Source of the DNA: Cryobacterium sp.
GTDB taxonomy: Bacteria; Actinomycetota; Actinomycetes; Actinomycetales; Microbacteriaceae
Length of the DNA stretch: 34,453 nt
Assembly (NCBI RefSeq): GCF_026786305.1
Contig: NZ_JAJAYI010000029.1
Location: 1 to 34,453, forward strand
Reading direction: 5' to 3'
Part shown: positions 16,141 to 31,595 of the stretch, piece by piece
How the letters are laid out: each line of letters begins with the position of its first letter
Position numbering within the stretch: position 1 is the first letter of the stretch
Translations under genes and position numbers: made by a program
Notes under the pieces: generated by a model
Told to the model about the DNA's origin: nothing
Databases searched by the model: none
What the model saw: only the letters and a program-made list of their open reading frames with translations

Positions 16141-16185
16141 GCCGCCGGGTGAGATGCCGCCGGGTGAGATGCCGCCGGGTGAGAT
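16141..16185. repeat. Three perfect 15-bp tandem repeats upstream of the kinase operon
   Basis: GCCGCCGGGTGAGAT occurs three times head to tail without a mismatch and is followed by GCGGC, the beginning of a fourth unit. It lies between the rpoC terminator and the kinase promoter region. No ORF with coding character covers it, so iterated protein binding or recent slippage are the options. Confidence 0.85.
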
Positions 16186-16217
16186 GCGGCACGTCGCTCT
16201 ACACAGGAGCCAAGCGA

Positions 16218-16236
16218 CACCCCCATAATGGGGGTG
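16218..16236. promoter_or_regulatory. 19-bp perfect palindrome, operator-like
   Basis: CACCCCCATAATGGGGGTG has nine-base perfect arms around a single central A. The C-tract/G-tract layout resembles operators of the CsoR/RcnR/FrmR family, but no such regulator gene is in the window. It sits about 20 bases upstream of the candidate -35 box of the kinase operon, where an activator or repressor could act. Confidence 0.55.
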
Positions 16237-16245
16237 CCCCATATT

Positions 16246-16283
16246 CCCGTACGGGTTACGCTGACGGGCGCTCTCGTTAAGAT
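16246..16283 (+). promoter_or_regulatory. Candidate kinase-operon promoter with adjacent palindrome
   Basis: The palindrome CCCGTACGGG (16246-16255) directly abuts TTACGC (16256-16261), and TAAGAT follows after 16 bases (16278-16283). TAAGAT is a plausible -10 box; the -35 match is poor, which would suit an activated promoter or an alternative sigma factor. The rest of the 318-base gap between rpoC and the kinase shows no gene. Confidence 0.4.
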
Positions 16284-16358
16284 TGAACCTGAGACCAGCT
16301 GGGCCTTCGCGAGTCACGACGAAGACGCATCATGGAACTAACGCAGGTCGGGGGAGCA

Positions 16359-17504
16359 ATGGGCAGGCGACTCCCTTCTGCGCCGCCCATTTTGTCGGGG
16401 TATACCTATGTGCGGCCCCTCGGCACGGGCGGATTCGCCGACGTTTTTCTGTTCGAACAGAACATGCCTCGCCGTTCCGTGGCGGTCAAGGTGCTGCTGC
16501 AGGACATCGTCGACGATGACGTGTTGCGCGCGTTCAACGCCGAGGCGGATGTCATGGCGCGGCTCAGCTCACATCCGTCAATTCTGACCGTGTACAACGC
16601 GAGCATCTCGGCCGATGGTCGCCCGTACCTCGTCATGGAATTCTGCCCCGGGTCGTACTCCTCCCGCGAGCGTGCGGAGCAGCTGCCCGTGGCGACCGTG
16701 CTCAACGTTGCCGTGAGAATCGCCTGCGCCCTCGAAACAGCGCACCGCTCCAAGGTGCTGCACCGCGACATCAAACCATCAAACATTCTCACCAGCACCT
16801 TCGGCGGCCCGGTGCTCGGCGACTTCGGCATCGCCGCGTCCCTCGACGGCGGCGCCCGCGACGAACTGTTCGCCATGTCGCTGCCGTGGAGCGCCCCCGA
16901 AGTCGTCGACGGGCGCACCACCGGCACGGTCGCGACCGAGGTCTGGTCGTTCGGCGCCACCCTCTACTCGCTGCTGGCCGACCGGTCCCCGTTCGAACTG
17001 CCCGCGGGCTCCAATCGTTCGCGCGTGCAGCTGAAACAGCGCATCAACCGCGCGGAGTACACCACCATTGGGCGAGCGGATGTCTCCACCCCCCTCGAAA
17101 GCGCCCTCGCGCGCATGATGAGTCGCGACCCGGCCGCCCGCCAGGTGAGCCTGCTCGAATGCGCCCTCGACCTGCAGCGCGTAGAGCGGGACCTCGGACT
17201 GCCCGTCACCGCGCTGGAGGTGGCCGACGAAGCCTGGGCATCCGCTGGTGCGCCCGTCGATTTTGACAATCATGAGTCGCGTGGCGCCGTCAGCTCTGAT
17301 GTCATCATTCCCGCGCTGCGCCCCGCCACTAGAAGAAGCGCCCGCCGCCCGGCATCGCACACCCGCGAGGGCACCCTGCCCGACGGGGGCAATATCGGAC
17401 GTCGGCGACTTTCCCCGCTCGTGCTGGGTCTGCTCCTGACCGGCGCGGTCGTTGTCGGCGGCGGCGCCACGGTCGGCGCGCTGCGGATAGCCGGGCTGAT
17501 CTGA
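16359..17504 (+). CDS. Membrane-anchored Ser/Thr protein kinase (Hanks type)
   Basis: A 381-aa eukaryotic-like kinase that should phosphorylate Ser/Thr residues on cytosolic domains. All catalytic elements are present: Gly-rich loop GTGGFADVF (residues 22-30), VAVK with ATP-binding K44, HRDIKPSN with catalytic D137, DFG at 155-157 and APE at 179-181. After the kinase domain comes a basic, Pro/Arg-rich linker and one C-terminal membrane helix (LSPLVLGLLLTGAVVVGGG) with almost nothing outside. It therefore lacks the PASTA or other sensor domain of PknB-like kinases. The start chosen follows GGGGGAG; an ATG nine codons upstream (16332) is also in frame. Its stop overlaps the next gene's ATG (TGATG), which argues that the giant surface protein is its functional partner. 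Confidence 0.93.
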   Translation: MGRRLPSAPPILSGYTYVRPLGTGGFADVFLFEQNMPRRSVAVKVLLQDIVDDDVLRAFNAEADVMARLSSHPSILTVYNASISADGRPYLVMEFCPGSYSSRERAEQLPVATVLNVAVRIACALETAHRSKVLHRDIKPSNILTSTFGGPVLGDFGIAASLDGGARDELFAMSLPWSAPEVVDGRTTGTVATEVWSFGATLYSLLADRSPFELPAGSNRSRVQLKQRINRAEYTTIGRADVSTPLESALARMMSRDPAARQVSLLECALDLQRVERDLGLPVTALEVADEAWASAGAPVDFDNHESRGAVSSDVIIPALRPATRRSARRPASHTREGTLPDGGNIGRRRLSPLVLGLLLTGAVVVGGGATVGALRIAGLI

Positions 17505-20500
17505 TGGCCGACAAACGGGCTCGCCGGCGACTGCCGGTGCTCTCGAAAGCCCGCCGCAGCGTCATTCGCATTGCCGCGGTTGCCGCGATCGGTGCCGTGC
17601 TGGCCACGGTAGCTATCGTCGTCGATGGTTTCGACGTGAAGCAGATTCCGGTCAACGCGAGTTCGATCTGGGCCCTCCAGAGCGGTGACGGCAATCGGTA
17701 CGCCCGCATCAACACCGACCTGGGCGAACTCGACACCGTGAAGACCGTGCCGGCACCGAGCGAACTGGTGCAGACCGCTTCCACGGTGCTGCTCTACGCG
17801 CAGAACAACGAGAAGGTCGTCGACGTGAGCCTCGCGGCGCCGATCGACCTGGGTGATGACGCGGCCGACTACGACAACACGCCGGCCGGTACCCGAACCA
17901 TCGTGTCGTCGAGCTCCTGGGTCGGTTACCTCACGAGCGCGGGAACGGTCTTCGCCGGCGCTGTGGACGGGGCCGCTGCACCCCGCCCGGTGAACCAATA
18001 CGCCGACGATGAGGTGGTCGACGGTGACACCCGGCGCGTCTACCGCTCCGACGCCATCGCCATCACGCCCGACGGTGTGCTCTACAGCTACTCCAGCGAG
18101 GCCAAGAGTGTGCTCCGCTATTCCATTGCGGACGACAGAATTCTCGGTGAGGACGCCGTCGCCGACGGTCCGGCCGAGCCCGGTAGCCAGCTGAGCGTCG
18201 TCGGCGACAGCTGGGCGCTACTCGGCGTGGCCGGCGACGAACTGTGGCTGGCCGGCCAGACCGAACCGGTTGCGACGAACATGAGCGAACTGGCCGTGCT
18301 GCAACGCCCGAGCGCTTCCACCGACGACGTGCTCATTGCCGACCAGACCGGCCTGGTTGCCTTTGCGCTCACCGACGGCGCCCGCACCGAGCTGGTCGGC
18401 GACTCCGGGGTAGTGCTCGGGGCCCCCGCCGCGCCGACCCCTTTTAAAGGGGAACGCTACGCCGCCTGGCTGCCCGCCTCCGGTACCGGCGGCACCCTGT
18501 TCAGCGAGGGCGCGGGCGAATCGACCCTCAGCTACGGCCAGGTCGCGCCGAACGGCGACGCAGCCCCTGCGTTTCGCGCCAACGAATCGCTCATGATTCT
18601 CAACGACACCCGGAGCGGATGGGTGTGGACCGTTCCCGGCGGCGCCCTTGTCGCCAGTTCCCAGGACTGGTCTCTGGCCGCCGCCGAGCAACCACAGCGC
18701 CAGGAGGACATGGAAGAAGCCTCCGAGGTCGTTGAACCGAAGGCTCCCGTGGCCGTCGCGGATACCTTTGGCGTGCGTCTCGACCAGCTCGTGATGCTGC
18801 CGGTCCTGCTCAATGACCATGACGCCAACGACGACGTGCTCAGCGTCGTGCCCGCCTCGGTCACCGGGCTCGACCCCGCGTTCGGCACGGTCACCGTCAT
18901 CGATCACAACCAGGCGCTCGCCGTTCAGGTGGCTCCCGGCGCCCGCGGAGTGGCAACCTTCAGCTACGCCATCACCGACGGCTCGCGCACCGATGGGCTC
19001 GATTCTCCCTCGACCCTTGTCACGCTCACCGTGCACGGCGCCGACGTGAATTCTGCACCGGTCTGGTGCGGCACCGACGGTTGCCTGCAGGACTGGCCGA
19101 GCCCCGAGGTGCAACCGGGCGGCACCGTGACCGTTCCAGTGTTGCCCGGCTGGGTCGATCCCGACGGTGATCCGATCTTCGTCTCATCCGCTCTGAACAC
19201 CACCGATATCGGCTCGGTCAGTGTGACTCCCGCGGGCGTACTCGTTTATAAGCACCCCAATGCGGCCGAGCAGGCCGTGCAGTCGGCCACGGTTCTGGTG
19301 CGCGTCTCGGACATTCACGGTGCCTCGACCGAGAAGGTGCTCACGATCGTGGTCACGCCGACCCCCCGGCTCAGGGCCCTGCCGTTCGCGCTGCTCGCCT
19401 CGGTGAACGAGCGCCTCACGGTGAACCCGGCCGAGTACGTGTCCGGCGCCGCCGGCCTGTACCGCATCACGTCGGCCACGACCCCGGCCAGCGCCGAGGG
19501 GTCCACGGTGAGCATTACGGCCAACGGTACCGCCTTCGACTTTGCCGCGACCGTGGTCGGCAACTTCACGGTCAGCCTCACGATCGCCGACGACGTGAGC
19601 GAGGTGGTGTCGCTCGTGCGCATTTCGGTGGTATCAGCGGATGCCCAGGCGCTCACGACCTCCCCGGTGACGGTCTTCGTGCGGCCCCGGGCCGACACGA
19701 GTGTTGACGTTTTTACCGCCGTCTCCAACCCGGCCGGACGGGTGCTGCTGCTCGGCGAAGCCATTCCCGAAACCGTTCTCGGCGCCTCGCTCAGCGTCGA
19801 CGTCGTCGGGCAGAACATCTTGCGCGTACGCGGCTCCACTCTGGATGAACGGCCGGGCAAGCTCGGCACCGTGCGCTACACCGTGTCGGACGGCACCGAA
19901 AACCCGCTCTACACCGTGCGCGGCGAGGCCACCGTGTACCTGCTCGAGGCCTCCGTGCCGCAGGTGCCGATCGCCATGAACGACAGCGTGTCGGTGCGTG
20001 TGGGCGCCCAGATCAATATTCCGGTGCTCGCCAACGATGTCGCGCCGGGCGGCAACCGAGTGATGCTCAATGCCGAATCAGTGCAGAATCGACAGCAGCA
20101 GGGTCTTGCCTTCGCGGCCGGCACTCAACTGCGCTACCTCGCCCCCAACGAACCGGGCAGCTACGAGCTCGCCTACAGCGTGTACACCGCGGGCGCGCCC
20201 GATCTCATCGACTCGGCCGTGGTCTCGGTCGAGGTGCTCGCCAACGGCGACAACACGGCGCCGCAGCCGCGCACCCTCTACGGTCGGGTGTTGTCGGGCG
20301 AGACCATCGTGATTCCTTTTGACAGCTTTGGCACCGACCCCGACGGCGATACCGTCGTGCTCGATCGGGTGCTCACTCAGCCGGCGCGCGGAACGGCCTC
20401 GATCAATGCCACCGGCGACGCCATCGTGTTCGCCAGCCCTCTCGACTATCACGGCGCCATCGAATTTCAGTATCGGGTGCGCGACAGCATCGGGGCCACG

Positions 20501-23500
20501 GGCCTCGCACTCGTGCGCATCGGTGTGCTCGACCAGCGCTCCAACCCGAGCCCGATCACCTTCAGCGACTACGTCGAGGTGCAGGCCGGAGCCGACAACC
20601 AGGTGGCTGTCTTTCCCACTGCCAACGACATCGAGCCCGGCGGCGGCAGGCTGACCCTGACCGCGGTCACCCCCGACGCGGCGCCCGGCACCGCCGAGTT
20701 CGACGCGCTGCAGCAACGCATCGACTCCGTCACCGACGAACGAGTGGTGTTCACGGCCGGCACGGAGCCCGGCCTGCTCACCTTCGTGTACTCGGTGACC
20801 AACGCCAACGTCGACGTCGGCCAGGGCCTCATCGTGGTCAAGGTCGTGCGTTCCTCCGTTCCCGACTATCCGGTCGTGATCGACACGACGCTGGCCCTCG
20901 ATGAACGTGACGCGTTCCCGACGGGCGTCGACGTCGTCACCGACAAGGTGTCCTGGAACTCCGGTGACGTCAGAGACCTCACCCTGACCCTGTGGGGCAG
21001 TCATCCCGGGCTCGTGGTGACGGGCTGGAAGATCAGCGGCGATGTTCCCGACGAGGGACTGCTTGCCCCGTTCGCCCTGACCGGGCCGAATTTTCAGGGT
21101 GTCGACGTGACGACCTACGGGTTTCTGCGCATTCCGGCGAAGGATTCGATCATCATCGCGTTGAAGAAGAGCAACATCGACCAGAACGTGCACGAAGACG
21201 CCTCCGTCACATTCGATCTCAAGAGCCTCGTGTCGATTCCTCGCGGAACGACCCTGGAACTGCAGCGCACCGGCATCCGTTCGTCGGGGGAGCGCGACAA
21301 CGCGACCTGCACGTTCGACTCCGGCACGACGGTCACCTACGCGGCCGGGTCGGACGCGCCGTGGACCGACTCCTGCACGGTGCCAGCGCGCATCGACGGG
21401 CAGGAGGGTTATACCCAGCTGGTCGTGCCGATCGTGGTCGAGCCGCTCGACCCGCAACCGGAACTGCGCCCGGCGGCGCTGACCCAAAGCCCGGGGGCCG
21501 ATGCCATCCGCTACGACCTCAGCCATATGGTCGACTGGCAGGGCACGGGCGCGGTGCCGGCGTTGACCTTTGCGATCGAGTTCTCCTCCGACCAGTTCAC
21601 CGTGACGCAGGACGGCGCGATTCTCACGATCGGTGTTGCCGACAACGCCGTGGCCGGCCGTGAGGCGGCAGTGACGGTGAGCCTGTCGAGCCACCGCGAA
21701 ACGGTTGCGGCAGTGCTCGCGCTCAAAGTCGGCCCGGCGCCGAGCGAACTGCCCAAGGGCGGCACCGTCGCGACGACCTGCACCCAGTCGTCGGGCTCCA
21801 GTTGCTCGATAACGGTCGTCGGCGCGGCGGGTGAGGTCAACCTCTACCGTGGCACCCCGCTCGCTCTTGTCTCCGTCACCGCACCCGGCACCTGCGCTGG
21901 TGTGTCGTTCGTGGTCGTGAATTCCCGCAACGTCAAGGCCACCTGGTCGGGCGACACCGCCGGCGGCGTCTGTGAGGCAAGTTTTGTGGTGCGCGACGCG
22001 CAGGGCAGGCTCAGCGCCGGAAGCCGCAACGGCTCGATCACGGTCGATCTGCAGGGCTACCCGAAAGCGCCGAATGCCGTGACACAGATTGCCTACGGCG
22101 ACCGCTCGGTAACCCTCGCGGTCAGCTCCGGCGGCGCCAACGTTGCCTACCCGGCGCTCGAGGGATTCAACCTGTACCGCAACGGCGCCTCGGTAGCCCG
22201 CTGCGACCCGTCGGGCAACTGCGGCGTGATTCGAACGACTGAGAACGGTGACAAGGCTCTCTACGAAGCCCGGGCCGTCAATGCCGTCGGCGAATCGCGC
22301 AGCGCGGTCAGCGTCACAGCCTGGTCGTATGCCACCCCGGGCATGGGGCGACTCACGGCCGAACCGGTCTTTCGGAAGGGCACCACGAGCGCCTCGACCG
22401 GTGCCGTCACCCTGACCATCGAGAACAATGACCGATCGACCAACCGCTACAGCGTGAACGGCACCGAACAACCCGTCACGACGCCCGGCACCGGAAAGAC
22501 CCAAATGACCCTCGCGCTCGGTGTGGGCAACCAGACCGTCACGGTGACCCCGCTCAGCCGGGACGACCAGCCAGCGGGCAGCGGTCCGACCGAGGAGACG
22601 ACGTCACAGGCCGTGCTCGTGGCCGGATCGCCCGCGATCACGAGCGCCGGTTCGCTGAGTTCGCAGAACCGGTCGATCACCGTGGCGGGCACCGGGTTCA
22701 ACCCGAACTTCAGCACGCTGCCGGTGCAGGTGCTCTACGTCGCCTCGCTCACCGAGGGCGCAACCTGCACGCTGACCCCGGCGGGTTTCACCCCGGAGGG
22801 TGCGGCCTCATCGAGGGACCTCTCGATCGGCGGCCTGACCAAGCACACCAAGTACTTCGTGTCGGTCTGCTATTCCAACGGCTACGGGGTCACGATGGCC
22901 AACGCCGGTTCGATCACCACCTGGCAGCAGCCGGCTGCCCCGGGCGACGACGAATATACCTACACGATGTCGGCACCGACGGGCGGGGATTACCGAATCA
23001 CCGAGCCCACGTCGTCATCAACCAGGCCAGACGTCGGCTTCGAGGCGAACTTCGAGAACTTTGATGCCAACACCGGGTCTGACATTTTCGGCGCCGATCC
23101 CCGCATTCGGGTGCGGTACTGCATGACGGAAGACCCCACTCTCTGTAGCGACTGGTCGAGGGTGGCGGCGGCTGATGCGACACGGGCCTGGCAGGTCACG
23201 TATGCGGTGACCGGCCTCACGACTGCGGGCTGCGTCATCGACGGCACGCTTGCGGTCGCCGTCGAGGCGACCTCCGGACTTGCCACAGCGATTGTCACCG
23301 GCGCTGACTACCTCTCTCTCAACGCCCAGGGCAGCGCGACGTGGCAGAGAGTCGAGGGCAGCACGGTTGCCAGCGGCGCGACCGAGGTCAAGAACGTGAC
23401 GTGGCAAATCATCTGGTCGGGCGACAATACGTCTGGCCTCGACCCGGTAACCGGCATCACCCAGACCACGGCCACCGGCTGCACCCCGGCCTCCCAGTAA
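17504..23500 (+). CDS. Giant membrane-anchored Ig-like/FnIII surface protein (1998 aa)
   Basis: A very large extracellular protein with a short basic cytosolic N-terminus, one membrane helix (about residues 21-41) and an outside part of nearly 1950 residues. Residues 45-400 contain repeated short strands of the type ITPDGVLYSYSSEAKSVLRYS that suggest a beta-propeller. From about 410 to 1110 come several tandem cadherin-like/Ig-like modules (Big_9-type), recognisable by PVLLNDHDANDD, PGWVDPDGDPI, PVLANDVAPGG, GTDPDGDTV and TANDIEPGG turns. A less typical region (1120-1500) with paired Cys follows, then FnIII-like modules (about 1519 onward, EGFNLYRNGASVARC) and more beta domains to the end. 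No LPXTG signal or C-terminal helix is present, so anchoring is only N-terminal. It is probably an adhesin, wall-bound structural protein or extracellular sensor paired with the kinase. Function is inferred. Confidence 0.88.
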   Translation: MADKRARRRLPVLSKARRSVIRIAAVAAIGAVLATVAIVVDGFDVKQIPVNASSIWALQSGDGNRYARINTDLGELDTVKTVPAPSELVQTASTVLLYAQNNEKVVDVSLAAPIDLGDDAADYDNTPAGTRTIVSSSSWVGYLTSAGTVFAGAVDGAAAPRPVNQYADDEVVDGDTRRVYRSDAIAITPDGVLYSYSSEAKSVLRYSIADDRILGEDAVADGPAEPGSQLSVVGDSWALLGVAGDELWLAGQTEPVATNMSELAVLQRPSASTDDVLIADQTGLVAFALTDGARTELVGDSGVVLGAPAAPTPFKGERYAAWLPASGTGGTLFSEGAGESTLSYGQVAPNGDAAPAFRANESLMILNDTRSGWVWTVPGGALVASSQDWSLAAAEQPQRQEDMEEASEVVEPKAPVAVADTFGVRLDQLVMLPVLLNDHDANDDVLSVVPASVTGLDPAFGTVTVIDHNQALAVQVAPGARGVATFSYAITDGSRTDGLDSPSTLVTLTVHGADVNSAPVWCGTDGCLQDWPSPEVQPGGTVTVPVLPGWVDPDGDPIFVSSALNTTDIGSVSVTPAGVLVYKHPNAAEQAVQSATVLVRVSDIHGASTEKVLTIVVTPTPRLRALPFALLASVNERLTVNPAEYVSGAAGLYRITSATTPASAEGSTVSITANGTAFDFAATVVGNFTVSLTIADDVSEVVSLVRISVVSADAQALTTSPVTVFVRPRADTSVDVFTAVSNPAGRVLLLGEAIPETVLGASLSVDVVGQNILRVRGSTLDERPGKLGTVRYTVSDGTENPLYTVRGEATVYLLEASVPQVPIAMNDSVSVRVGAQINIPVLANDVAPGGNRVMLNAESVQNRQQQGLAFAAGTQLRYLAPNEPGSYELAYSVYTAGAPDLIDSAVVSVEVLANGDNTAPQPRTLYGRVLSGETIVIPFDSFGTDPDGDTVVLDRVLTQPARGTASINATGDAIVFASPLDYHGAIEFQYRVRDSIGATGLALVRIGVLDQRSNPSPITFSDYVEVQAGADNQVAVFPTANDIEPGGGRLTLTAVTPDAAPGTAEFDALQQRIDSVTDERVVFTAGTEPGLLTFVYSVTNANVDVGQGLIVVKVVRSSVPDYPVVIDTTLALDERDAFPTGVDVVTDKVSWNSGDVRDLTLTLWGSHPGLVVTGWKISGDVPDEGLLAPFALTGPNFQGVDVTTYGFLRIPAKDSIIIALKKSNIDQNVHEDASVTFDLKSLVSIPRGTTLELQRTGIRSSGERDNATCTFDSGTTVTYAAGSDAPWTDSCTVPARIDGQEGYTQLVVPIVVEPLDPQPELRPAALTQSPGADAIRYDLSHMVDWQGTGAVPALTFAIEFSSDQFTVTQDGAILTIGVADNAVAGREAAVTVSLSSHRETVAAVLALKVGPAPSELPKGGTVATTCTQSSGSSCSITVVGAAGEVNLYRGTPLALVSVTAPGTCAGVSFVVVNSRNVKATWSGDTAGGVCEASFVVRDAQGRLSAGSRNGSITVDLQGYPKAPNAVTQIAYGDRSVTLAVSSGGANVAYPALEGFNLYRNGASVARCDPSGNCGVIRTTENGDKALYEARAVNAVGESRSAVSVTAWSYATPGMGRLTAEPVFRKGTTSASTGAVTLTIENNDRSTNRYSVNGTEQPVTTPGTGKTQMTLALGVGNQTVTVTPLSRDDQPAGSGPTEETTSQAVLVAGSPAITSAGSLSSQNRSITVAGTGFNPNFSTLPVQVLYVASLTEGATCTLTPAGFTPEGAASSRDLSIGGLTKHTKYFVSVCYSNGYGVTMANAGSITTWQQPAAPGDDEYTYTMSAPTGGDYRITEPTSSSTRPDVGFEANFENFDANTGSDIFGADPRIRVRYCMTEDPTLCSDWSRVAAADATRAWQVTYAVTGLTTAGCVIDGTLAVAVEATSGLATAIVTGADYLSLNAQGSATWQRVEGSTVASGATEVKNVTWQIIWSGDNTSGLDPVTGITQTTATGCTPASQ

Positions 23501-23551: not shown

Positions 23552-24517
23552 ATGACAATCACCCCGGAGCAGTCAGACTGGTTTGCCACGACCTTCACGA
23601 TGATGGTCGACAACGTCGAACAGGTTGTTCTCGGTAAGCGCCACGTGATCGAACTCGCCTTCACCGCGATGGTCAGCGAGGGCCACCTGCTGCTCGAGGA
23701 CTACCCGGGCACCGGAAAGACCTCGCTCGCCCGCGCCATGTCCCAGACCGTGCAGGGTGTTTCCACCCGCATTCAGTTCACCCCCGACCTGCTGCCCGGC
23801 GACGTGACCGGCATCACCGTCTACGACCAGAAGACCGGAGAGTTCGAGTTTCACAGCGGACCGATCTTCGCCAACGTCGTGCTCGCCGACGAGATCAACC
23901 GGGCCAGCCCGAAGACCCAATCGGCTCTGCTCGAAGCGATGGAAGAGGGCAACGTCACCATCGACGGTGTCACCCGCTCCACCGGTGTGCCGTTTCTCGT
24001 CATCGCCACCCAGAACCCGATTGAGCAGGCCGGCACCTACCGGCTGCCCGAGGCCCAGCTCGACCGGTTCATGATGAAGGCGTCGCTCGGCTACCCCGAC
24101 CTCGCAGCGACCATCCGCATTCTCGAGGGCACCGCCGACGTTCGCCACGAACTCGCCCCGGTCATCACCCCGCAGACGCTCCTGAGCATGAGCGACATCG
24201 CCCGCGGCGTGTTCGTGAATCCGCTCGTCTATGACTACATCGGTCGTCTGGTCGAGGCGACCCGCGACGCTCGCCAGGTGCGCATGGGCGTCAGCGTGCG
24301 TGGCGCTCGCAGCCTCACCAAGGCCGCCAAAACCTGGGCCGTCGCCCACGGCCGCACCTTCGTCACCCCCGACGATGTCAAGGCCCTCGCCAACCAGGTG
24401 CTCGCCCACCGCATGGTGCTCGACCCCGAGGCCGAATTCGACGGCGTCACCGCGAGCGCCGTCATCGGCCAGATTCTGCTCGACATCGTACCGCCCAGTC
24501 GGATCGACCTGGCGTGA
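23552..24517 (+). CDS. MoxR-family AAA+ ATPase
   Basis: A 321-aa cytosolic AAA+ ATPase of the MoxR class. These act as chaperone-like machines that help mature or activate partner complexes, usually with VWA or DUF58 proteins encoded next door. Walker A is YPGTGKTS (about residues 51-58), Walker B is VVLADEIN, and the MoxR signature ASPKTQSALLEAMEE follows. Sensor and arginine-finger elements are in ATQNPIEQAGTYRLPEAQLDRFM, and the lid domain carries VRMGVSVRGARSL. It starts 51 bases after the giant gene, beyond the 23-bp duplication. Its GTGA overlap with the DUF58 gene is consistent with the classic MoxR-DUF58 pairing. Confidence 0.96.
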   Translation: MTITPEQSDWFATTFTMMVDNVEQVVLGKRHVIELAFTAMVSEGHLLLEDYPGTGKTSLARAMSQTVQGVSTRIQFTPDLLPGDVTGITVYDQKTGEFEFHSGPIFANVVLADEINRASPKTQSALLEAMEEGNVTIDGVTRSTGVPFLVIATQNPIEQAGTYRLPEAQLDRFMMKASLGYPDLAATIRILEGTADVRHELAPVITPQTLLSMSDIARGVFVNPLVYDYIGRLVEATRDARQVRMGVSVRGARSLTKAAKTWAVAHGRTFVTPDDVKALANQVLAHRMVLDPEAEFDGVTASAVIGQILLDIVPPSRIDLA

Positions 24518-25884
24518 GTTCTCATACCGAATCGCGCCTGACGCGTCGCGAAACCCAGACCAGGTCTGCAACGCACACCCGGTATGCGAGCACGCGCACG
24601 AGCCAGTCAACGACGTTGACCCTTGTGGGCGCGGTCGTGCTGTGGATGCGGGTCTCGCGGGCTGTGCGAAACGGTGTGAAGGCATCCGTCGAATGGATCG
24701 GCGAAACGGTCAGACCGGCCGGCTGGGTGGTGGTCGCGGCCGCGATCGTGCTGCTGCCGCTCGGCCTCGTCTTCGGCTGGACCGAACTGATAGTGGCCGG
24801 CTGCGTGGCGGTCGCCCTCATTCTCATCTCGCTGCCGTTTCTGGCCGGTGGTCGCGCCTACAGCGTCGACTTCGTGCTGCCGGTCGATCGGGTCGTTGCC
24901 GGTTCCGAGGTGCTCGGCGCCCTCACCGTCACCAACGTCTCGACGCGGGTTCAGCTGCCGGGTCGCGTAGATGTTCCCATTGGCAAGGGGCTAGCGGATA
25001 TCTACGTGCCGCTCCTGCGCGCCGGCCACGTGCATGAGGAGCACGTTCGCGTACCGGCCCACCGGCGCGGCGTTATCGATGTGGGCCCGGTCACGACCGT
25101 GCGCAGCGACCCGCTCGGGGTGCTCGGCCGCGAAGTGGCCTGGGCCGACGTCAACCGCCTGTTCGTGCACCCGGTGACCGTGTCGATTCCGAGTACGAGC
25201 GCCGGTTTCGTGCGCGACCTCGAGGGCAACCCGACGCGCGACATCGTCGACTCCGACATCTCTTTTCACGCCATTCGCGAGTACGCCCCCGGCGATGGGC
25301 AGCGGCACATTCACTGGAAGTCCACCGCGAAGACCGGCAGACTCATGGTGCGCCAGTTCGAAGAAAGCCGGCGCTCCCGCCTGGCCATCGTGCTGAGCCT
25401 GAACGCGGCGGAATACGCCTCCGACGACGAGTTCGAGATGGCGGTCAGCGCGACCGGGTCGCTCGGTGTGCGCGCCATTCGCGACGGGCGAGACCTGGCC
25501 GTCGTGGCGAGCGAGGAGGTTCCCGATATCGTGCGCAGCAGCATCCGTTCGGTGCACAGCCTGAGTGTCGTCTCGACGCGCACCCTGCTCGATGATCTCA
25601 CCGCGATCGAGGTGAGCCCGCACGCCATGAACGTTGAAGACGTCTGCGTGCTCGCCGCCCAGGTGGTGCCCGATATTTCGATCGCGTTCGTGGTGTGCGG
25701 CAGCGCGATGACTGTCCGGCGCCTGCAGGCGCTCACCCTGAAATTTGCCGGTAGTGTGCAGGTCGTCGCCGTTCTGTGCAATCCCAACGAACAGCCGAGC
25801 TTTCGCGACCTCGCGGGCACGAGCGTGCTGACCATCGGCGTGCTCGACGACTTACGTTCCCTGCTCAGCCGGCGGGCCTCATGA
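24514..25884 (+). CDS. DUF58 domain-containing membrane protein
   Basis: A 456-aa membrane protein with a Thr/Arg-rich cytosolic N-terminus, two close membrane helices (about residues 69-87 and 90-110) and a soluble domain. The DUF58 signature is clear: DSDISFHAIREYAPGDGQRH followed by IHWKSTAKTGRLMVRQFEE. The C-terminal half is VWA-like, with the strand LAIVLSLNAAEYASDDEFE; VWA domains bind a metal and a protein partner. DUF58 proteins are the usual clients or partners of MoxR ATPases. The GTG start overlaps the moxR stop by four bases and the stop overlaps the next gene by four bases (ATGA), so the three products are probably made in fixed ratio and may form one membrane complex. Confidence 0.93.
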   Translation: MSSHTESRLTRRETQTRSATHTRYASTRTSQSTTLTLVGAVVLWMRVSRAVRNGVKASVEWIGETVRPAGWVVVAAAIVLLPLGLVFGWTELIVAGCVAVALILISLPFLAGGRAYSVDFVLPVDRVVAGSEVLGALTVTNVSTRVQLPGRVDVPIGKGLADIYVPLLRAGHVHEEHVRVPAHRRGVIDVGPVTTVRSDPLGVLGREVAWADVNRLFVHPVTVSIPSTSAGFVRDLEGNPTRDIVDSDISFHAIREYAPGDGQRHIHWKSTAKTGRLMVRQFEESRRSRLAIVLSLNAAEYASDDEFEMAVSATGSLGVRAIRDGRDLAVVASEEVPDIVRSSIRSVHSLSVVSTRTLLDDLTAIEVSPHAMNVEDVCVLAAQVVPDISIAFVVCGSAMTVRRLQALTLKFAGSVQVVAVLCNPNEQPSFRDLAGTSVLTIGVLDDLRSLLSRRAS

Positions 25885-28508
25885 GCGCGCCCCAAACGCC
25901 CTGTGCTGGCCGACCCGTGACAGGTGCCCTGCCGACGATTCGGTCGCGCCGTGCGCCCGGTGGCCGACGCCGCGCCCGCGTGATCAACGCCCTGTTCGTC
26001 CTGGCGATGATGCTCGTCGCCACCTGGGCGGCCTGGCCGATCTACCAGGACACCAGCTACCTGGTGATGGCGGCCGGAGCGATCGCGGCCGGGCTGGCCC
26101 TGGCCTGGATCGGCGCCCGGCGTGGTTGGTCCTGGTTCACCGTGCTGCTGGCCACCCTCGGCGCCTACCTGCTGCTGGGCGTTCCGCTCGCGGTGCCGAC
26201 CACCCTCACGAGCGTGCCGACGAGCATACAAAGCGTGTTCGGCGGGCTGCTCGATCTGGTGACCGCGACGGTGTTCAGCTGGAAGGAGCTCGTCACCATC
26301 CAACTGCCGGTCGGCTCGTACCAGACCCTGCTCGTGCCGGCCTTTTTGCTGTTTCTCGGCGGCACCACGGTCGCCCTGTCGCTGGCCTGGCGCGGCGCCC
26401 GGCTCTACGCCCTCGCCGTGCCCCTCATCTTTGCCGTGCAACTGTTCGGTCTGATCTTCGGGTCGAGTGCCCTGAGCATTCCGCTGACCGTGTTCGGGGT
26501 CAGCGTACCGGCACCGCGCGAGAGCCTGATCGGTCTCGCCGCCCTGCTGCTCGCCTTCGGCTTTCTGTCCTGGCGAACCCACCTGACTCGCAGTGAGGCG
26601 CTTGATCTGGCCGGCCGCACGACCGGGGTGCGGCGCACCCCCGGCGGCCTCGGCGGTCGTCTGCGCCGGGCCGCCCTCGCCGGGGGCGTGCTCGTGATCG
26701 CCAGTGGCGTCACGCTCGGCGGGCTCTCGGCCGTCGCGGCGATGCCGGACCGTCAGGTGCTGCGCAGCAGCATCGACCCCGCCGTCGACCTGCGCGAGTA
26801 CGTCAGCCCGCTCAGCCAGTACCGCAGCTACTTCAGCGCCGAGCGGTACGACGCCGAGCTTTTCACGGTGACCGGCGATGCTGTCGAAGAGGGCGCCGCG
26901 GCGCGAGTGCGCCTCGCCGTGCTCAGCTACTACGACGGCGAAGTCTTTCGGGTCGTGAACCCTGCCGCGAGCGAGCGCGACCAGGCCACCGCCTTCGCCC
27001 GGGTGCCGCACACCCGCGGGTCGACCGGTGGACGCGTCACGACCGGGTTCGCCATAGCCGGGTACACCGGCGTCTGGATGCCGGGCGCCGGCGCTCTCTC
27101 GAGCATCCGCTTCGCCGGTGACCGCGCCGCTGACCTGAGCGATGGCTTTTTCTATAACGCGGGCACGGCATCTGGAATTCAACTCAACACCCTCAAAAAC
27201 GGTGACCGCTACACGATCGTCTCGCAGCAGCACACGGATGCGACGGACCTGGCCGGCCTCGCCCGCCCGGCCGGCGACGCGATTGACGATTCGCTCACTC
27301 CACAGAGCCTCGGCGACTGGGTAGACGCCCAGGCGGTCACGCACGATGGCGCCGGACTTGCCGAACTCGTCACGCGTCTGCGCCAGCGCGGCTACCTCAG
27401 CCACGCCCTGACCGTGCCGGCGGTGGACTCCTGGACCGCCGACCTTGGCGACTACCGGTTCTCTCCGAGCCTGTCTGGGCACTCGGTCGCCCGCATCGAC
27501 GCCCTCTTCACCGCCCTGCTCGACAAGCAGAACAGCACGAGCGCCACCGAGAATTCCCAGCTGGTGGCCGCCATTGGTGACGACGAACAGTTCGCCGTCG
27601 CGACCGCGCTGCTCGCCCGCCACCTCGGGTTTGAGTCTCGCGTGGTGGTGGGATTCACCCTCGGTGCGGCATCCGCTGATTCGAGTGCTCCCGGCTCCTG
27701 CGTGCAGGGCGTCTGCTCGGGGCGAAACCTCGCGGCCTGGGTCGAAGTGGCCGGCGGCGACGGCAGCTGGGTGACCGTGGACGCGACCCCGCAGTTTCAG
27801 AACCCGCTGTCGCCCATTGATGACACGACCCGCGACCCGCAATACAACACCGAGGTCATCGCGGAGGGTGCCACCGAGCAGCGAGCCCCCGAGGCCAATC
27901 CGACCAGCAATGAGGACCAGCCCGAACAGGAACCGGTCACCGGCCCCGACCTGGCCTGGCTGTTCGCGACCCTCAAGATTGCCGGCATCAGCCTGGCCGC
28001 ACTGCTCGCGATCAGCACGCCGTTCCTGGTGATTCTCGGCGCCAAACTCAAGCGCCGCCGTGACCGGGCGCGTGCCGTTGACGTGGCGGCGCGGTTCGCC
28101 GGCGGCTGGGACGAATACATCGATACCGCCGTCGACCGCGGTCTGGCCGACCAGGGCAGCATGACCCGGGTCGAAATCGCGTCGCACTACCAATCGGTGG
28201 GCGGCACACAACTCGCGACCCTCGCCGACCGAGCCGTCTTCGGCCCGAACCCGCCGCAGGCTGCCGAGAGCGACACCTTCTGGGCACTCGTCACGGCCGA
28301 ACGTGCCGTGCTCGCTGCGAGTGGCACCCGGCGCGAACGCCTGTGCGCCGCCATCTCACTACGCTCCTTTTCTCGGCTAGCGGATGCCCGCCGGCTCGTA
28401 GCTTTTCGACGACGCTCATCTCGTTACGACGTCACCACCGTACGCCTGAACCGGCGCGACACCAGCAGAATGGGGGAGCGGCCGCCCACCAGCGGCCGCG
28501 AATCATAA
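25881..28508 (+). CDS. Multi-TM transglutaminase-fold protein, catalytic residues replaced
   Basis: An 875-aa membrane protein: six or seven N-terminal membrane helices (roughly residues 34-285), an extracellular region (290-688), one more helix (about 690-720) and a basic cytosolic tail. The layout is that of the TgpA-like transglutaminase proteins found beside MoxR and DUF58 genes. The extracellular transglutaminase fold is recognisable in GDDEQFAVATALLARHLGF, SRVVVGFTLG, NLAAWVEVAGGDGSWVTVD and ATPQF. The nucleophile Cys expected in G-x-C-x-x-F-A is D568 and the His expected in H-A-W is A618; only the third-position Asp remains. It is therefore probably not an active peptidase or crosslinker but a binding domain. 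The ATG overlaps the DUF58 stop by four bases; a longer frame-open region upstream lies inside DUF58 and was not used. Confidence 0.88.
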   Translation: MSAPQTPCAGRPVTGALPTIRSRRAPGGRRRARVINALFVLAMMLVATWAAWPIYQDTSYLVMAAGAIAAGLALAWIGARRGWSWFTVLLATLGAYLLLGVPLAVPTTLTSVPTSIQSVFGGLLDLVTATVFSWKELVTIQLPVGSYQTLLVPAFLLFLGGTTVALSLAWRGARLYALAVPLIFAVQLFGLIFGSSALSIPLTVFGVSVPAPRESLIGLAALLLAFGFLSWRTHLTRSEALDLAGRTTGVRRTPGGLGGRLRRAALAGGVLVIASGVTLGGLSAVAAMPDRQVLRSSIDPAVDLREYVSPLSQYRSYFSAERYDAELFTVTGDAVEEGAAARVRLAVLSYYDGEVFRVVNPAASERDQATAFARVPHTRGSTGGRVTTGFAIAGYTGVWMPGAGALSSIRFAGDRAADLSDGFFYNAGTASGIQLNTLKNGDRYTIVSQQHTDATDLAGLARPAGDAIDDSLTPQSLGDWVDAQAVTHDGAGLAELVTRLRQRGYLSHALTVPAVDSWTADLGDYRFSPSLSGHSVARIDALFTALLDKQNSTSATENSQLVAAIGDDEQFAVATALLARHLGFESRVVVGFTLGAASADSSAPGSCVQGVCSGRNLAAWVEVAGGDGSWVTVDATPQFQNPLSPIDDTTRDPQYNTEVIAEGATEQRAPEANPTSNEDQPEQEPVTGPDLAWLFATLKIAGISLAALLAISTPFLVILGAKLKRRRDRARAVDVAARFAGGWDEYIDTAVDRGLADQGSMTRVEIASHYQSVGGTQLATLADRAVFGPNPPQAAESDTFWALVTAERAVLAASGTRRERLCAAISLRSFSRLADARRLVAFRRRSSRYDVTTVRLNRRDTSRMGERPPTSGRES

Positions 28509-29714
28509 ATGGATGAATCATCTGGAGCGATCATCGCGGTCATCGTGGTGATCGTGCTGCTCGGCATCGGCGTGTACGTGTTCTCGTCGATCGCCCTCGG
28601 CACGATCTTTGTGAAGCTTGGGGAACAAGCCTGGAAGGGCTGGGTGCCGATCGTCAACACCATCACCCTGTTTGAACTTGGGCGATATTCGGCACTGTGG
28701 GCGATCGGCCTCTTCATTCCGGCCGCAAACCTCATTGCCTTCATCATCTTCATCATGGCGGTCAACAACGTCAACCGACGGTTGGGTCGCGGCGGCGGAT
28801 TCACCCTGCTCTACCTCGTCTCCTTTCCCATCTGGGCCGGCGTGCTCGGGTTTGGAAAGTCCTTCAACACGGGCTGGATGCCGGAAATGTCCGCGACCGG
28901 GTACGTTCCGTTCGCTCCGGTGAGGCCGTTGTCGATGTTGTCGATGATGTCGGCGGCACCCGTGCCGGTCGCCGGGCCGCCCGCAGGCCAGAGCGCTATG
29001 CCGACGGCCCCGTCGGCCCCGCCAGCGCCGCTGGTTTGGACGCCCATGCCCCTGGCCCCGCCCGCAGCATTTCTGGCGACGGCACCGACTGCGACTCCGT
29101 CACCACCTGCACCGACTGCACCGATTGCACCGACTGCGCCTCCGGCACCACCTGCCGTGCGCGGTCTGCCCATCGGACCGCCGCCCTTCTACGTGAGCGT
29201 CCCGCCGACGCCCCCGGTGATTTCCGCCGTGGTTCCCACGGTCACTCCCACAGCGATTGTCTCAGAGGTGTCTGCGGTGATTGCGGCAGGCGTCAGCGAG
29301 GCGGCCGAACCCGAATCAGACGCCGAGCCCGAATCAGACGCCGACGACGACCTCGACGAGACCATGATCGTCGTGCGTCGTATGAAGCCGTGGACGCTCG
29401 AAACCGAACACGGCCTCAAGGTCTCGCTCACCAAACCGGTCGTGCTGCTCGGGCGCAACCCTGCGCGTGACAGCGCACATCCGGACGCGCAGTTGGTGCC
29501 CGTGCACGATCCAGATAAGACGGTGTCGAAGACGCACGCCCGCCTCGACTTTGTCGAGGGCGCCTGGGGCATCAGCGACCTGCACTCCACCAACGGCGTC
29601 GTGCTGATCGACGGCGGTGGCATTGAGAACGAGCTCGATGCGGGTGCGAGCGCGCCCCTGACCGATCGGTTCCTGCTGGGGGAGCTCGCGGCGCGCATCT
29701 ACTTGGAGGCCTGA
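28509..29714 (+). CDS. DUF5684 membrane domain - FHA domain protein
   Basis: A 401-aa protein with three parts. Residues 1-120 form a membrane domain with three to four helices and the DUF5684 pattern (GEQAWKGWVPIVNTITLFEL, RYSALWAIGLFIPAANL). Residues about 140-240 are a Pro/Ala/Thr-rich linker made of PTAPP-like units. Residues 300-401 are an FHA domain, a phospho-Thr reader, with VLLGRNP, SKTHARLDF and DLHSTNGV carrying the expected Arg, Ser, His and Asn binding residues. Immediately before the FHA domain lies LDETMIVVRR with T285, placed like the phospho-Thr motif that controls the FHA proteins GarA and OdhI. The ATG directly follows the upstream stop (TAAATG). It probably carries the kinase signal to the membrane complex. 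Confidence 0.92.
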   Translation: MDESSGAIIAVIVVIVLLGIGVYVFSSIALGTIFVKLGEQAWKGWVPIVNTITLFELGRYSALWAIGLFIPAANLIAFIIFIMAVNNVNRRLGRGGGFTLLYLVSFPIWAGVLGFGKSFNTGWMPEMSATGYVPFAPVRPLSMLSMMSAAPVPVAGPPAGQSAMPTAPSAPPAPLVWTPMPLAPPAAFLATAPTATPSPPAPTAPIAPTAPPAPPAVRGLPIGPPPFYVSVPPTPPVISAVVPTVTPTAIVSEVSAVIAAGVSEAAEPESDAEPESDADDDLDETMIVVRRMKPWTLETEHGLKVSLTKPVVLLGRNPARDSAHPDAQLVPVHDPDKTVSKTHARLDFVEGAWGISDLHSTNGVVLIDGGGIENELDAGASAPLTDRFLLGELAARIYLEA

Positions 29715-29717
29715 GCC

Positions 29718-30590
29718 ATGACCTGCCCCGTCGACCAGCGGGCGACCAGCCCAGGGGTGTCGCTGCGGTGCGGCTCGCGCACCGATATCGGCCGCAAGCG
29801 GAAGGAGAACGAAGACTCCCTGCTGGCGGCGTCGCCGGTGTTCATCGTCGCCGACGGCATGGGTGGGCTCGAAGCCGGCCACCGGGCCAGCGCCGCCGTG
29901 ATCGCCGAATTTCAGACCTGCGTCGGCCGTACCGGCGTGCCGGCCGGTGACGTGGTGTCTGCGGTCCAGCGCGCCCACATGATGGTGCGCACAGTGTCGA
30001 ATTCGACCGGGCGCGGTGCCGGCAGCACCCTGACCGGACTCGTTCTCATCGATCACGAAGATTCCCCGCAATGGCTCATCGTGAACGTGGGTGACTCCCG
30101 CGTCTACCGCCTGCACGAAGGCGAATTTCACCAGCTCACCGTCGACCATTCCCTCGCTCAGGAACTCATCGACGACGGCACTTTGCTCAAAGAGGATGTC
30201 GCCACCTTCGCCCGCAAAAACGTCATCACCCGGGCCATGGGCGCCGACAACAGCAGCGCGGACTACTGGCTGCGCCCGGTCGTGACCGGCGAACGCCTGC
30301 TCGTGTGCTCCGACGGACTCAGCGGAGAACTCTCCGACGAGAGCATCAAGGCCGCCCTGACCCTCGGTGGCACGACCCAGCAGACGGCCGACCTGCTGCT
30401 CGCCGGCGCCCTCGAACACGGTGGCCGCGACAATATCTCGGTGATCGTGATCGATGTCATTGCCGGCGGATTCAGCTCCTGGCACGGCGGTGCGATCGAC
30501 GACGACGACGACGACCAGTCCGACACCATTGACACCCGCACCGAAGATACTCGACCGGTGCAACGAGTGGCCCGCAATGCAGCCGACTGA
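29718..30590 (+). CDS. PP2C-type Ser/Thr protein phosphatase
   Basis: A 290-aa cytosolic metal-dependent phosphatase that should reverse the operon kinase. The PP2C metal sites are all present: RKENEDS, VADGMGG, VNVGDSRVYRL, LVCSDGL and GRDNISV. The catalytic domain ends near residue 240. The tail that follows is unusual for a simple PP2C: a run of six Asp, then DTIDTRTEDTRPVQR, in which T278 fits the acidic-Thr-x4-Arg pattern seen in its two neighbours. There is no membrane helix. It starts three bases after the FHA gene and overlaps the next gene by 14 bases, so it belongs to the same translationally coupled run. Confidence 0.95.
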   Translation: MTCPVDQRATSPGVSLRCGSRTDIGRKRKENEDSLLAASPVFIVADGMGGLEAGHRASAAVIAEFQTCVGRTGVPAGDVVSAVQRAHMMVRTVSNSTGRGAGSTLTGLVLIDHEDSPQWLIVNVGDSRVYRLHEGEFHQLTVDHSLAQELIDDGTLLKEDVATFARKNVITRAMGADNSSADYWLRPVVTGERLLVCSDGLSGELSDESIKAALTLGGTTQQTADLLLAGALEHGGRDNISVIVIDVIAGGFSSWHGGAIDDDDDDQSDTIDTRTEDTRPVQRVARNAAD

Positions 30591-31392
30591 CCCGGCGCAG
30601 GTGGTCCCGGAGCGAGGGCACGGCGGGGCCGACGAGTTTGACGATGTACCCGATGACGAGGTAACCCGTATTATTCGCCGGCACGCGCCGCGCCACGCCG
30701 CCGCAGCTCCGGCGCTGACCGCCAGCAACAGGCTCGAGCTGCCCGGCGAGATCGGGGAGACCGACGGGCTCGAGCTGCCCGAGCTGCCCCAAGTGCCCGA
30801 GCTGTCCCACGTGCCCGAGCTGCCCGACGACGATGACACGCGCAGCGAGCACCGCGACAGTGATGAACGCACCCGCATCGTTGCGCGCACCGCTGATGAC
30901 AACACCCGAATTGGGGCACGACGGCAGCTGGGAAACCGCCCTGCAGTGCACTCGGAACCAGATTCTGACAACGCACCGGCAGGCTCCGACCCGACCGATG
31001 AGGCCACCGTGCGGTCCTCGCAGCGCAGTAAGGCCGACGATACGCTCCTGAGCAGTCGACGGGCGGCCGCTCCAGCGCACCCTCCCGTCGTCGATGCGCT
31101 GCAACGCCGGTATGAGCCGCCGCAGGTGCAGAGCGGCGCGAGTGTGCGCTACTCTGCACGGCCGATACCGGCGGTCGTAGAGCCGAAGGCGTCAGCGCCC
31201 GTGCCCGTGCCCGACGTGCAGTCCGATCCGGCCCGCATCCGTCTGGCCGACGCTGCCACCGAGATTCGAGAGCGTGCGGCGGCAACAGCCCGTCGTCGCC
31301 GCCGATTCACCCTGGTCGCGATCATCTCGAGCACCGTCCTGGTGGTGCTCGCCGCAGCCGTGTTCGTCGTCTTCACCGTTCTCACCTGGTGA
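30577..31392 (+). CDS. Tail-anchored acidic protein with repeated Thr motifs
   Basis: A 271-aa protein of no recognised family. The first 235 residues are Pro/Asp/Arg-rich and look disordered, and a single membrane helix at the extreme C-terminus (RRRRRFTLVAIISSTVLVVLAAAVFVV) would leave the body in the cytoplasm. Six Thr residues (30, 88, 99, 110, 144, 156) are preceded by Asp/Glu and followed by Arg five or six residues later, as in DDEVTRIIRR and DERTRIVAR; three of them are spaced exactly 11 residues apart. Between them is an ELP/VPEL repeat (residues 65-83). I infer a multisite kinase substrate and FHA docking platform at the membrane. The ATG lies inside the PP2C gene's last codons; the ribosome site is weak. 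Confidence 0.75.
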   Translation: MQPTDPAQVVPERGHGGADEFDDVPDDEVTRIIRRHAPRHAAAAPALTASNRLELPGEIGETDGLELPELPQVPELSHVPELPDDDDTRSEHRDSDERTRIVARTADDNTRIGARRQLGNRPAVHSEPDSDNAPAGSDPTDEATVRSSQRSKADDTLLSSRRAAAPAHPPVVDALQRRYEPPQVQSGASVRYSARPIPAVVEPKASAPVPVPDVQSDPARIRLADAATEIRERAAATARRRRRFTLVAIISSTVLVVLAAAVFVVFTVLTW

Positions 31393-31480
31393 GTGCCGTG
31401 CGGCCGGCCGCCGCGCGCGCCACGCCACATATGTCACCCTTCCGCCAGCACCGAATAACCAGGAGCTTTATTCTCTTGAC

Positions 31481-31493
31481 AGATGTCACATCT
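31481..31493. promoter_or_regulatory. 13-bp palindrome upstream of the GGDEF-EAL gene
   Basis: AGATGTCACATCT has six-base perfect arms around one C. It directly follows TTGACA (31476-31481, sharing its last A), a perfect -35 consensus, but no good -10 box is found at 16-18 bases (CGATCG there). A related ATGTCAC lies at 31431-31437. A repressor or CRP-like site is possible. Alternatively TTG at 31476, preceded by AGGAG, is an upstream start codon of the next gene. Confidence 0.35.
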
Positions 31494-31595
31494 CCCCTCG
31501 ATCGGGAAGCCGCCAACCCGGCCACCCCGCACGCCCGGCGGCCCGGTAGTCTGGTCATGACGACCGGCGCTCCTGCTAATCGGGAGCAGAGGAAT

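Follow-up and report, generated by a model that had tools for sequence, protein, structure and literature searches.

A threonine tag shared by an FHA protein, a PP2C phosphatase and a predicted tail-anchored protein in a PFNA-type operon of Cryobacterium

We analyzed a 34,453-nucleotide stretch of Cryobacterium sp. (contig NZ_JAJAYI010000029.1, assembly GCF_026786305.1), referred to below as the window, which carries on its forward (+) strand an operon encoding, among others, a Ser/Thr kinase, a membrane protein with an FHA domain, a PP2C phosphatase and a predicted tail-anchored protein (TAP). The last three share a short tag, in which an acidic residue precedes a Thr that is followed by Arg, mostly at position +5. 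The tag is conserved, specific for Thr and specific for the +5 position, and it occurs beside a co-encoded kinase, phosphatase and FHA domain that have their signature residues. Sequence comparison suggests that the tag is probably both the writing site of the operon kinase and the binding site of the FHA reader. We consider it rather likely that the operon encodes a membrane-bound phosphothreonine circuit, in which the kinase would write the tags, the FHA protein would read them and the TAP would serve as a multivalent docking platform.

The tag in three neighboring genes

The TAP, the presumed docking platform, has 271 amino acids (30577..31392, +), with an acidic, low-complexity N-terminal part and a C-terminal span. 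Its frame was read from 30577, within the 3' end of the PP2C gene, and the open reading frame (ORF) itself starts at 30454. The tag occurs six times in the window TAP, at T30 (EVTRIIRR, codon 30664..30666), T88 (DDTRSEHR, 30838..30840), T99 (ERTRIVAR, 30871..30873), T110 (DNTRIGARR, 30904..30906), T144 (EATVRSSQR, 31006..31008) and T156 (DDTLLSSRR, 31042..31044), all on the + strand. Arg stands at +5 after T30, T88, T99, T110 and T156, and at +6 after T144. The membrane FHA protein, the presumed reader (28509..29714, +), carries one copy directly before its FHA domain, LDETMIVVRR (29352..29381, with the codon of T285 at 29361-29363), and the PP2C phosphatase, the presumed eraser (29718..30590, +), carries one in its tail, EDTRPVQR (30543..30566, with the codon of T278 at 30549-30551), where the acid-preceded Thr has Arg at +5. 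An original prediction made from the letters of the window had named these eight Thr positions, and all were found where it placed them. The acid-preceded Thr residues 62, 140 and 228 of the TAP lie outside the six-site set; T228 (EIRER) does have Arg at +5, but Thr occupies its column in only 9 of 18 Cryobacterium TAPs.

These 18 TAPs, from the window and 17 further genomes of the genus, were aligned. Conservation of the Thr and of the +5 Arg among orthologues had been fixed beforehand as the test of the original prediction, and both proved to be conserved: the six tag columns held 96 Thr in 97 letters and never Ser, and Arg followed at +5 after 92 of the 96 conserved Thr. By column, Thr was found in 10/10 letters at T30 (8 gaps), 18/18 at T88, 15/15 letters at T99 (3 gaps), 18/18 at T110, 17/18 at T144 and 18/18 at T156. 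At T144, Arg is at +5 in 16 of the 17 Thr-bearing sequences. Four other columns upstream of the juxtamembrane RRRRR were at least half Thr (12, 13, 12 and 9 of 18).

Enrichment of the tag in TAPs of related loci

For a wider comparison, 80 named loci out of 557 were kept, belonging to Cryobacterium, Homoserinimonas, Leifsonia, Microbacterium, Microterricola, Ruicaihuangia, Demequina and further assemblies; loci L051-L068 and L089-L098 repeat the same genomes in part. The TAP was defined without reference to the motif, as the next ORF downstream of PP2C (or FHA) whose C-terminal end bears a hydrophobic span, and was picked in 93 of 118 loci. In two loci (L073 and L100) a TAP with 5 tags lies between FHA and PP2C, and in L117 one with 6 tags lies further downstream. 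A 383-amino-acid ORF with 9 tags further downstream in L070 is perhaps a TAP as well. Collapsing the 93 TAPs at 60% identity gave 65 representatives.

Across these representatives, Thr with an acidic residue at -1 to -3 and Arg at +5 was observed 370 times, compared with 55.6 expected from shuffled sequences. Taken singly against 500 shuffles each, 50 of the 65 TAPs lay beyond the 1% level and 57 beyond the 5% level. The window TAP itself has five copies of acid-T-x4-R against a shuffle mean of 0.59, a number reached in 0/500 shuffles. Arg followed at +5 after 370 of 627 acid-preceded Thr (59%), compared with 19% at +4, 28% at +6 and 8-16% at the other positions up to +12. After acid-preceded Ser, Arg was found at +5 in 29 of 263 cases (11%), near the background Arg content of 11.8%. 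Because of these differences between Thr and Ser and between +5 and the other positions, the TAP tag is both Thr-specific and +5-specific.

Controls gave values far below that of the TAPs. For Arg at +5 after acid-preceded Thr, the transglutaminase gave 6.9%, the remainder of the FHA protein 6.5% and a genome sample (343 mechanically picked ORFs in 20 stretches of 20 kb from another Cryobacterium genome) 7.7%. A narrow consensus of the tag, to which just two of the copies in the window TAP conform, was present once in 7 of the 343 sample ORFs and twice in none; among the TAPs, 59 of 65 had at least one match and 46 at least two. The loose acid-T-x4-R pattern was common in the sample, with at least one copy in 116 of the 343 ORFs and two or three in 32, and a single match therefore means little. 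Matches in RpoC (EPGTQLTMR in the window gene, with the same letters in other loci) and in FHA strands (TVIIGR in L070 and L087) were rejected as chance.

The TAP ends in a predicted membrane span (residues 247-265, 31315..31371, +; hydropathy) with RRRRR just before it, and the charge around the span is more positive before than after it in 63 of the 65 representatives. The predicted topology is tail-anchored, with the tag-bearing part in the cytosol. A TAP relative was detectable in 19 of 57 genomes of the genus Cryobacterium, including that of the window. The 27 TAP-like proteins listed, again with the window's own among them, are hypothetical or uncharacterised where they are named. PF28211 is listed for some TAP relatives; Pfam gave no match to this family at E values up to 10 for three such proteins or for the window TAP. 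One Cryobacterium TAP (L066, 15349-16251) has a long Ser-Ala/Ser-Val repeat between its tags and its span, likely a variable tandem repeat.

The FHA protein and the Thr before its FHA domain

The window FHA protein consists of a DUF5684 membrane part (PF18936), a long Pro/Ala linker and a C-terminal FHA domain (PF00498), and hydropathy gives the protein three hydrophobic segments. From 117 FHA proteins not running off their loci, 80 representatives were obtained, 64 of which have at least three hydrophobic segments before the FHA domain (counted in stop-to-stop frames, which may overcount). T285 marks a conserved Thr position before the FHA GR: Thr was found 29-32 residues before this GR in 70 of the 80 representatives, and exactly 30 residues before it in 46. 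Of these 70 Thr, 66 are preceded by an acidic residue at -1 to -3 and 63 are followed by a hydrophobic residue at +2; Arg stands at +5 in 59. When 32 chosen C-terminal parts were aligned, the pre-FHA Thr proved invariant alongside the phosphothreonine-binding residues GR, S, H and NG, and conservation of the +5 Arg was at least 90%. Besides the window, the alignment drew on 31 of the 41 named loci that were eligible, with L103, L106, L108, L113, L128 and L164 left out beforehand; three of these six (L106, L108 and L113) lack a Thr at 29-32, and "invariant" thus refers to the chosen set.

The domain has the strand sandwich of FHA domains and the conserved Arg, Ser, His and Asn of the phosphothreonine site; the S-x-[TNS]-H and NG patterns were both present in 68 of the 79 representatives with GR. 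Compared by fold with PDB structures, the FHA part matched FHA domains best, including those of MDC1, OdhI, GarA and DgcB; a comparison by sequence with the PDB gave no match. The AlphaFold2 model reached a confidence score (pLDDT) of about 97 over the FHA domain and about 54 over the stretch before T285, and its first FHA strand begins 10 residues after T285. With a gap of about this size in the model, binding of the tag in trans appears at least as likely as binding to the protein's own FHA domain.

The presence of the +5 Arg was then compared with that of the TAP. The Arg was present in 50 of 54 pre-FHA motifs from loci with a TAP and in 6 of 17 from loci in which no TAP was found, the six being five Microbacterium loci and one further assembly. 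For one of the six (L148), the contig ends before a TAP could be sought. Three loci (L070, L073 and L100) were placed in the TAP-bearing set by hand, and the counts ignore kinship. No pre-FHA acidic Thr was counted in 9 of the 80 representatives, at least two of which (L124 and L158) reflect a misjudged FHA start and do have the Thr. In ten loci of other families (L170-L183) the acidic Thr is still present, with the +5 Arg in 0/10. Because of these loci, the pre-FHA acidic Thr is, as judged from the sequences, the wider feature, and the +5 Arg appears to go with the TAP-bearing lineages. The acidic-Thr-x4-Arg code of the original prediction was upheld as conserved and Thr-specific, and had to be narrowed in that its Arg has a smaller range than its acidic Thr.

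The phosphatase tail and the kinase

The PP2C phosphatase was recognized by PF13672 over the cut-off, and its metal-binding Asp motif residues were judged by eye only. Among 33 PP2C tails, taken only from TAP representatives with a recognised tail start, Arg stands at +5 after an acid-preceded Thr in 23, where 1000 rounds of shuffling gave a mean of 4.5 and at most 12; with +6 also allowed, the number is 30, against a shuffle mean of 7.9 and at most 16. The Ser version was found in 0 of 33 tails with Arg at +5, and in 6 of 33 with Arg at +5 or +6. Together with the pre-FHA Thr and the excess in the TAPs, these tails bear out the claim that one tag is common to all three proteins.

The presumed writer, a Ser/Thr kinase of 390 amino acids (16332..17504, +; PF00069, E 3.2e-39), has the HRD and DFG motifs, Ile at DFG+1 and an activation segment, DFGIAASLDGGARDELFAMSLPWSAPE, without Thr. 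Hydropathy indicates a single span at residues 363-381, near the C-terminal end, with almost nothing after it. In the kinases of related loci, HRD was present in the searched form in 67 of 68 and DFG in 68 of 68. DFG+1 is Ile in 63 and Val in 5 of the 68, and both residues have been linked to Thr preference (PMC3898841). Apart from the P+1 loop, the activation segment has no Thr in the window kinase and in 40 of the 68, and in most of the 68 the P+1 loop resembles AMS-x-PWSAPE, with MS replacing the usual GT. In 4 of the 68, an acid-T-x4-R stands downstream of the kinase core; it was not counted as part of the code.

A putative phosphothreonine circuit and its alternatives

In the circuit proposed here, the operon kinase would phosphorylate the Thr of the tag [D/E]-x-T-[V/R/I]-[I/V/L]-[V/S/A]-x-R at several sites in the cytosolic part of the TAP, at one site just before the FHA domain and at one in the PP2C tail, and the FHA domain would bind the phosphorylated tags. 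The original prediction had the TAP recruiting the FHA protein to the membrane. Because the FHA protein has a membrane domain of its own, the TAP need not do so; membrane spans are present in the kinase, the FHA protein and the TAP alike, and the TAP may rather cluster or switch partners that are already in the membrane. The TAP would thereby gather FHA proteins into one membrane patch adjoining the MoxR/DUF58/transglutaminase machinery, and the tag in the PP2C tail would hold the phosphatase in the same patch. The T285 tag of the FHA protein would compete with the TAP for the same FHA pocket, and might either close the FHA domain on itself, as in OdhI/GarA, or link FHA proteins together, as in MDC1. 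By analogy with known systems, we infer both the phosphorylation of the tag Thr by the operon kinase with its binding by the operon FHA domain, and the clustering of partners with competition by the FHA protein's own tag.

Several observations weigh against this reading. No TAP was picked in 25 of the 118 loci, 13 of them from other families, and 10 of the 80 FHA representatives lack a Thr at 29-32 before GR. Eight of the 65 TAPs have no significant excess of the tag at 5%, L081 and L169 have no copy at all, and L086, L075 and L078 carry several acidic-Thr-hydrophobic copies without the +5 Arg. The +3 residue is mixed among the 370 TAP tags (Ser 133, Val 99, Ala 54, Thr 26). The strong selection of FHA domains at +3, from which the original prediction had argued, is consequently not what defines the code. 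Ile at DFG+1 is usual in bacterial kinases. A Thr-preferring kinase alone would give Thr-only motifs, and the contrast between Thr and Ser by itself is therefore no proof of FHA binding. A PP2C gene between FHA and TAP was not found in L109, L115, L125, L132, L138, L151 and other Microbacterium loci, in which kinase, FHA and TAP are present, so the eraser need not be local; it is as if the local eraser of these loci had been lost or replaced by a housekeeping phosphatase. The likeness of TAP and FHA tags within their own operon (0.253 vs 0.197) was not used, since it is confounded by kinship.

The strongest competing explanation, which we regard as unlikely, is that the tag reflects the consensus of a kinase only. 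It would then be the preference of the operon kinase, perhaps of housekeeping PknA/B-like kinases, with the FHA domain reading something else, and the TAP would be a multisite phosphoprotein in which the change in charge matters, for membrane binding or autoinhibition. Ile or Val at DFG+1 would account for the Thr preference without any FHA domain, the mixed +3 residue fits, and acidic residues near the site and an excess of phosphothreonine have been described for the mycobacterial phosphoproteome (PMC6554272). Against this explanation, the same tag recurs immediately ahead of the FHA domain with almost constant spacing, in the 32 chosen sequences it is conserved there like the phosphothreonine-binding residues, and FHA and TAP remain adjacent where no PP2C was found.

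It is quite improbable that the motif works without phosphorylation, with an acidic-Thr-hydrophobic-Arg strand docking, through beta addition or charge, onto a partner from the operon (the kinase, MoxR or the FHA surface). The mostly hydrophobic +1 and +2 residues and the strongly kept +5 Arg of the pre-FHA motif suit such a strand, and Nott and co-workers reportedly described phosphate-independent FHA interactions of M. tuberculosis GarA in 2009, but the motif keeps Thr, not Ser, and does so in an operon of kinase, phosphatase and FHA protein. Tandem duplication in repetitive, low-complexity acidic sequence, multiplying copies with no selection on the tag, is very improbable: some TAPs do contain near-identical tandem copies (DEDERTVIVDRG in L083, DDETVVTGR in L085, DDTRIVRR in L068), but the tag recurs with different spacers in representatives below 60% identity, the single-copy FHA and PP2C sites are kept, and Ser shows no excess of +5 Arg.

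Returning to the phosphothreonine circuit, a more specific form of it is conceivable, though we hold it to be doubtful. The sequences would allow a Thr-only, count-based membrane switch in which the size of the gathering of membrane FHA proteins depends on the number of phosphorylated TAP tags, and the tag in the phosphatase tail brings the eraser in as well. Writer, eraser and reader would then share a single linear code whose spelling is tuned by lineage, and the resulting patch would gate the MoxR/DUF58/transglutaminase export or assembly machinery of the PFNA operon.

Comparison with known systems

A separate multisite membrane protein is a new twist on the kinase-phosphatase-FHA theme. 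In the literature searched, mostly without subscription journals and with supplements excluded, we found no description of the tag or of the TAP, and no account of how the kinase, FHA protein and phosphatase of such operons communicate. If the proposed circuit is true, it would represent a bacterial membrane scaffold in which a protein other than the kinase offers several phosphothreonine docking sites, and the motif would help to find additional clients of kinases of this type. With a conserved tag as short as 6-9 residues, present in three proteins, the question is reduced to tests at the scale of peptides.

Among the closest precedents are the PknG and GarA/OdhI proteins. Several phosphothreonines in a disordered region of PknG dock GarA/OdhI, an FHA protein that is itself phosphorylated on a Thr lying N-terminal to its FHA domain (PMC8546545). 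In the GarA peptide SDEVTVETTSVFRADFL given there, the first Thr of ETTS has, by our own reading, Glu before it and Arg at +5 (PMC8546545). The docking sites of PknG are on the kinase itself, whereas those proposed here are on a separate tail-anchored protein. GarA/OdhI is moreover a small enzyme regulator without a membrane domain and with the motif ETTS; the window FHA protein has the DUF5684 membrane domain and the motif DETM, and thus falls outside that family. The first Thr of ETTS in the GarA peptide is presumably Thr21. In structures of the MDC1 FHA domain with its own phospho-T4 peptide (3unn, 3uot), the bound phosphothreonine peptide comes from the protein's own N-terminal side, and that of the DgcB FHA domain with its own phosphorylated N-terminal peptide (6hc1) has the same arrangement; at 17-23% sequence identity, both are structural precedents only.

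In the Thr phosphorylation pathway of the type VI secretion system (T6SS), PpkA-PppA-Fha, Fha binds phosphothreonine 14 in the cytosolic part of the inner-membrane protein TssL (PMC3953482). A kinase, a phosphatase and an FHA protein act together there, and one site (Thr 14) was found in TssL, in contrast to the several tags of the TAP. The SLMAP FHA domain binds several phosphothreonine motifs in the linker of MST2 and brings a phosphatase (PMC5663475); that system is eukaryotic, with another kinase and phosphatase, and serves as an analogy only. The phosphatase PstP acts on phosphothreonine near acidic residues and in membrane proteins (PMC6554272).

In Bifidobacterium, the PFNA operon consists of pkb2, fn3, aaa-atp, duf58 and tgm, followed in some species by prpC, a hypothetical gene and fha, and the kinase Pkb2 is reported to phosphorylate the MoxR protein (PMC8430577). 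The window shares these five core genes and their order, and it too has PP2C and FHA downstream; the downstream order differs, being FHA, then PP2C and TAP. The accessible portion of PMC8430577 contains no mention of a shared Thr tag. The idea that the Bifidobacterium hypothetical gene is a TAP was dropped, its counterpart in L183 (14428-15237), a locus called Bifidobacterium-like from its gene order only, encoding two LRV_2 (leucine-rich repeat variant) stretches. The FHA protein of L183 keeps the acidic Thr (DWDSTVLS) and has no +5 Arg.

Operon and genomic setting

The operon is of the PFNA type plus a TAP. Its genes stand in the order kinase, Ig/cadherin-domain protein, MoxR, DUF58, transglutaminase, FHA, PP2C and TAP. 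This corresponds to the PFNA core order of kinase, fn3-type surface protein, MoxR, DUF58 and transglutaminase, with the FHA and PP2C genes, in this order, downstream of the core. PFNA-type operons are present in many Actinomycetales. The position of the FN3 protein is taken by a large Ig/cadherin-domain protein of 1998 amino acids (17504..23500, +; PF17963 Big_9, PF17892, PF17803) with an N-terminal membrane span at residues 23-41 (hydropathy); no FN3 domain was called in it by Pfam at E 0.001. It is followed on the same strand by genes for a MoxR-type AAA ATPase (23552..24517, +; PF07726, E 6.5e-61), a DUF58 protein (24514..25884, +; PF01882) and a membrane transglutaminase-like protein (25776..28508, +; PF01841), whose start codon is uncertain, the true start possibly being later. 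Cryobacterium also supplies the nearest named relatives of the window's DUF58 gene, at identities of up to 91%.

The operon is located behind rpoB and rpoC, and a gene for a PAS-GGDEF-EAL protein lies downstream of it (31389-34451, continuing past the window end). A T6SS location is not indicated by these window neighbors, the window being the part of the genome to which the T6SS search was confined; the closest named relatives are actinobacterial. In two Microbacterium loci (L132 and L138, at about 16150-19840), ribosomal protein and elongation factor genes were seen by eye after the operon. According to the window and these two loci, the operon sits within a run of housekeeping genes.

Further FHA proteins were observed in some loci. 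A second one lies near PP2C in L170 (15550-17610), L172 (15264-17042) and L087 (15352-16746), with LW[DEG]xTV and HDG[HQA]T stretches, noted by eye, that are possible further Thr sites; a second FHA-like protein in L070 (15306-16316) is without these stretches. A single protein combining FHA and FtsK/SpoIIIE domains (a type VII secretion-like ATPase) is encoded downstream in L137 (17339-21352, Demequina) and L151 (17528-21313, Microbacterium), and in L151 an RDD protein is also encoded downstream.

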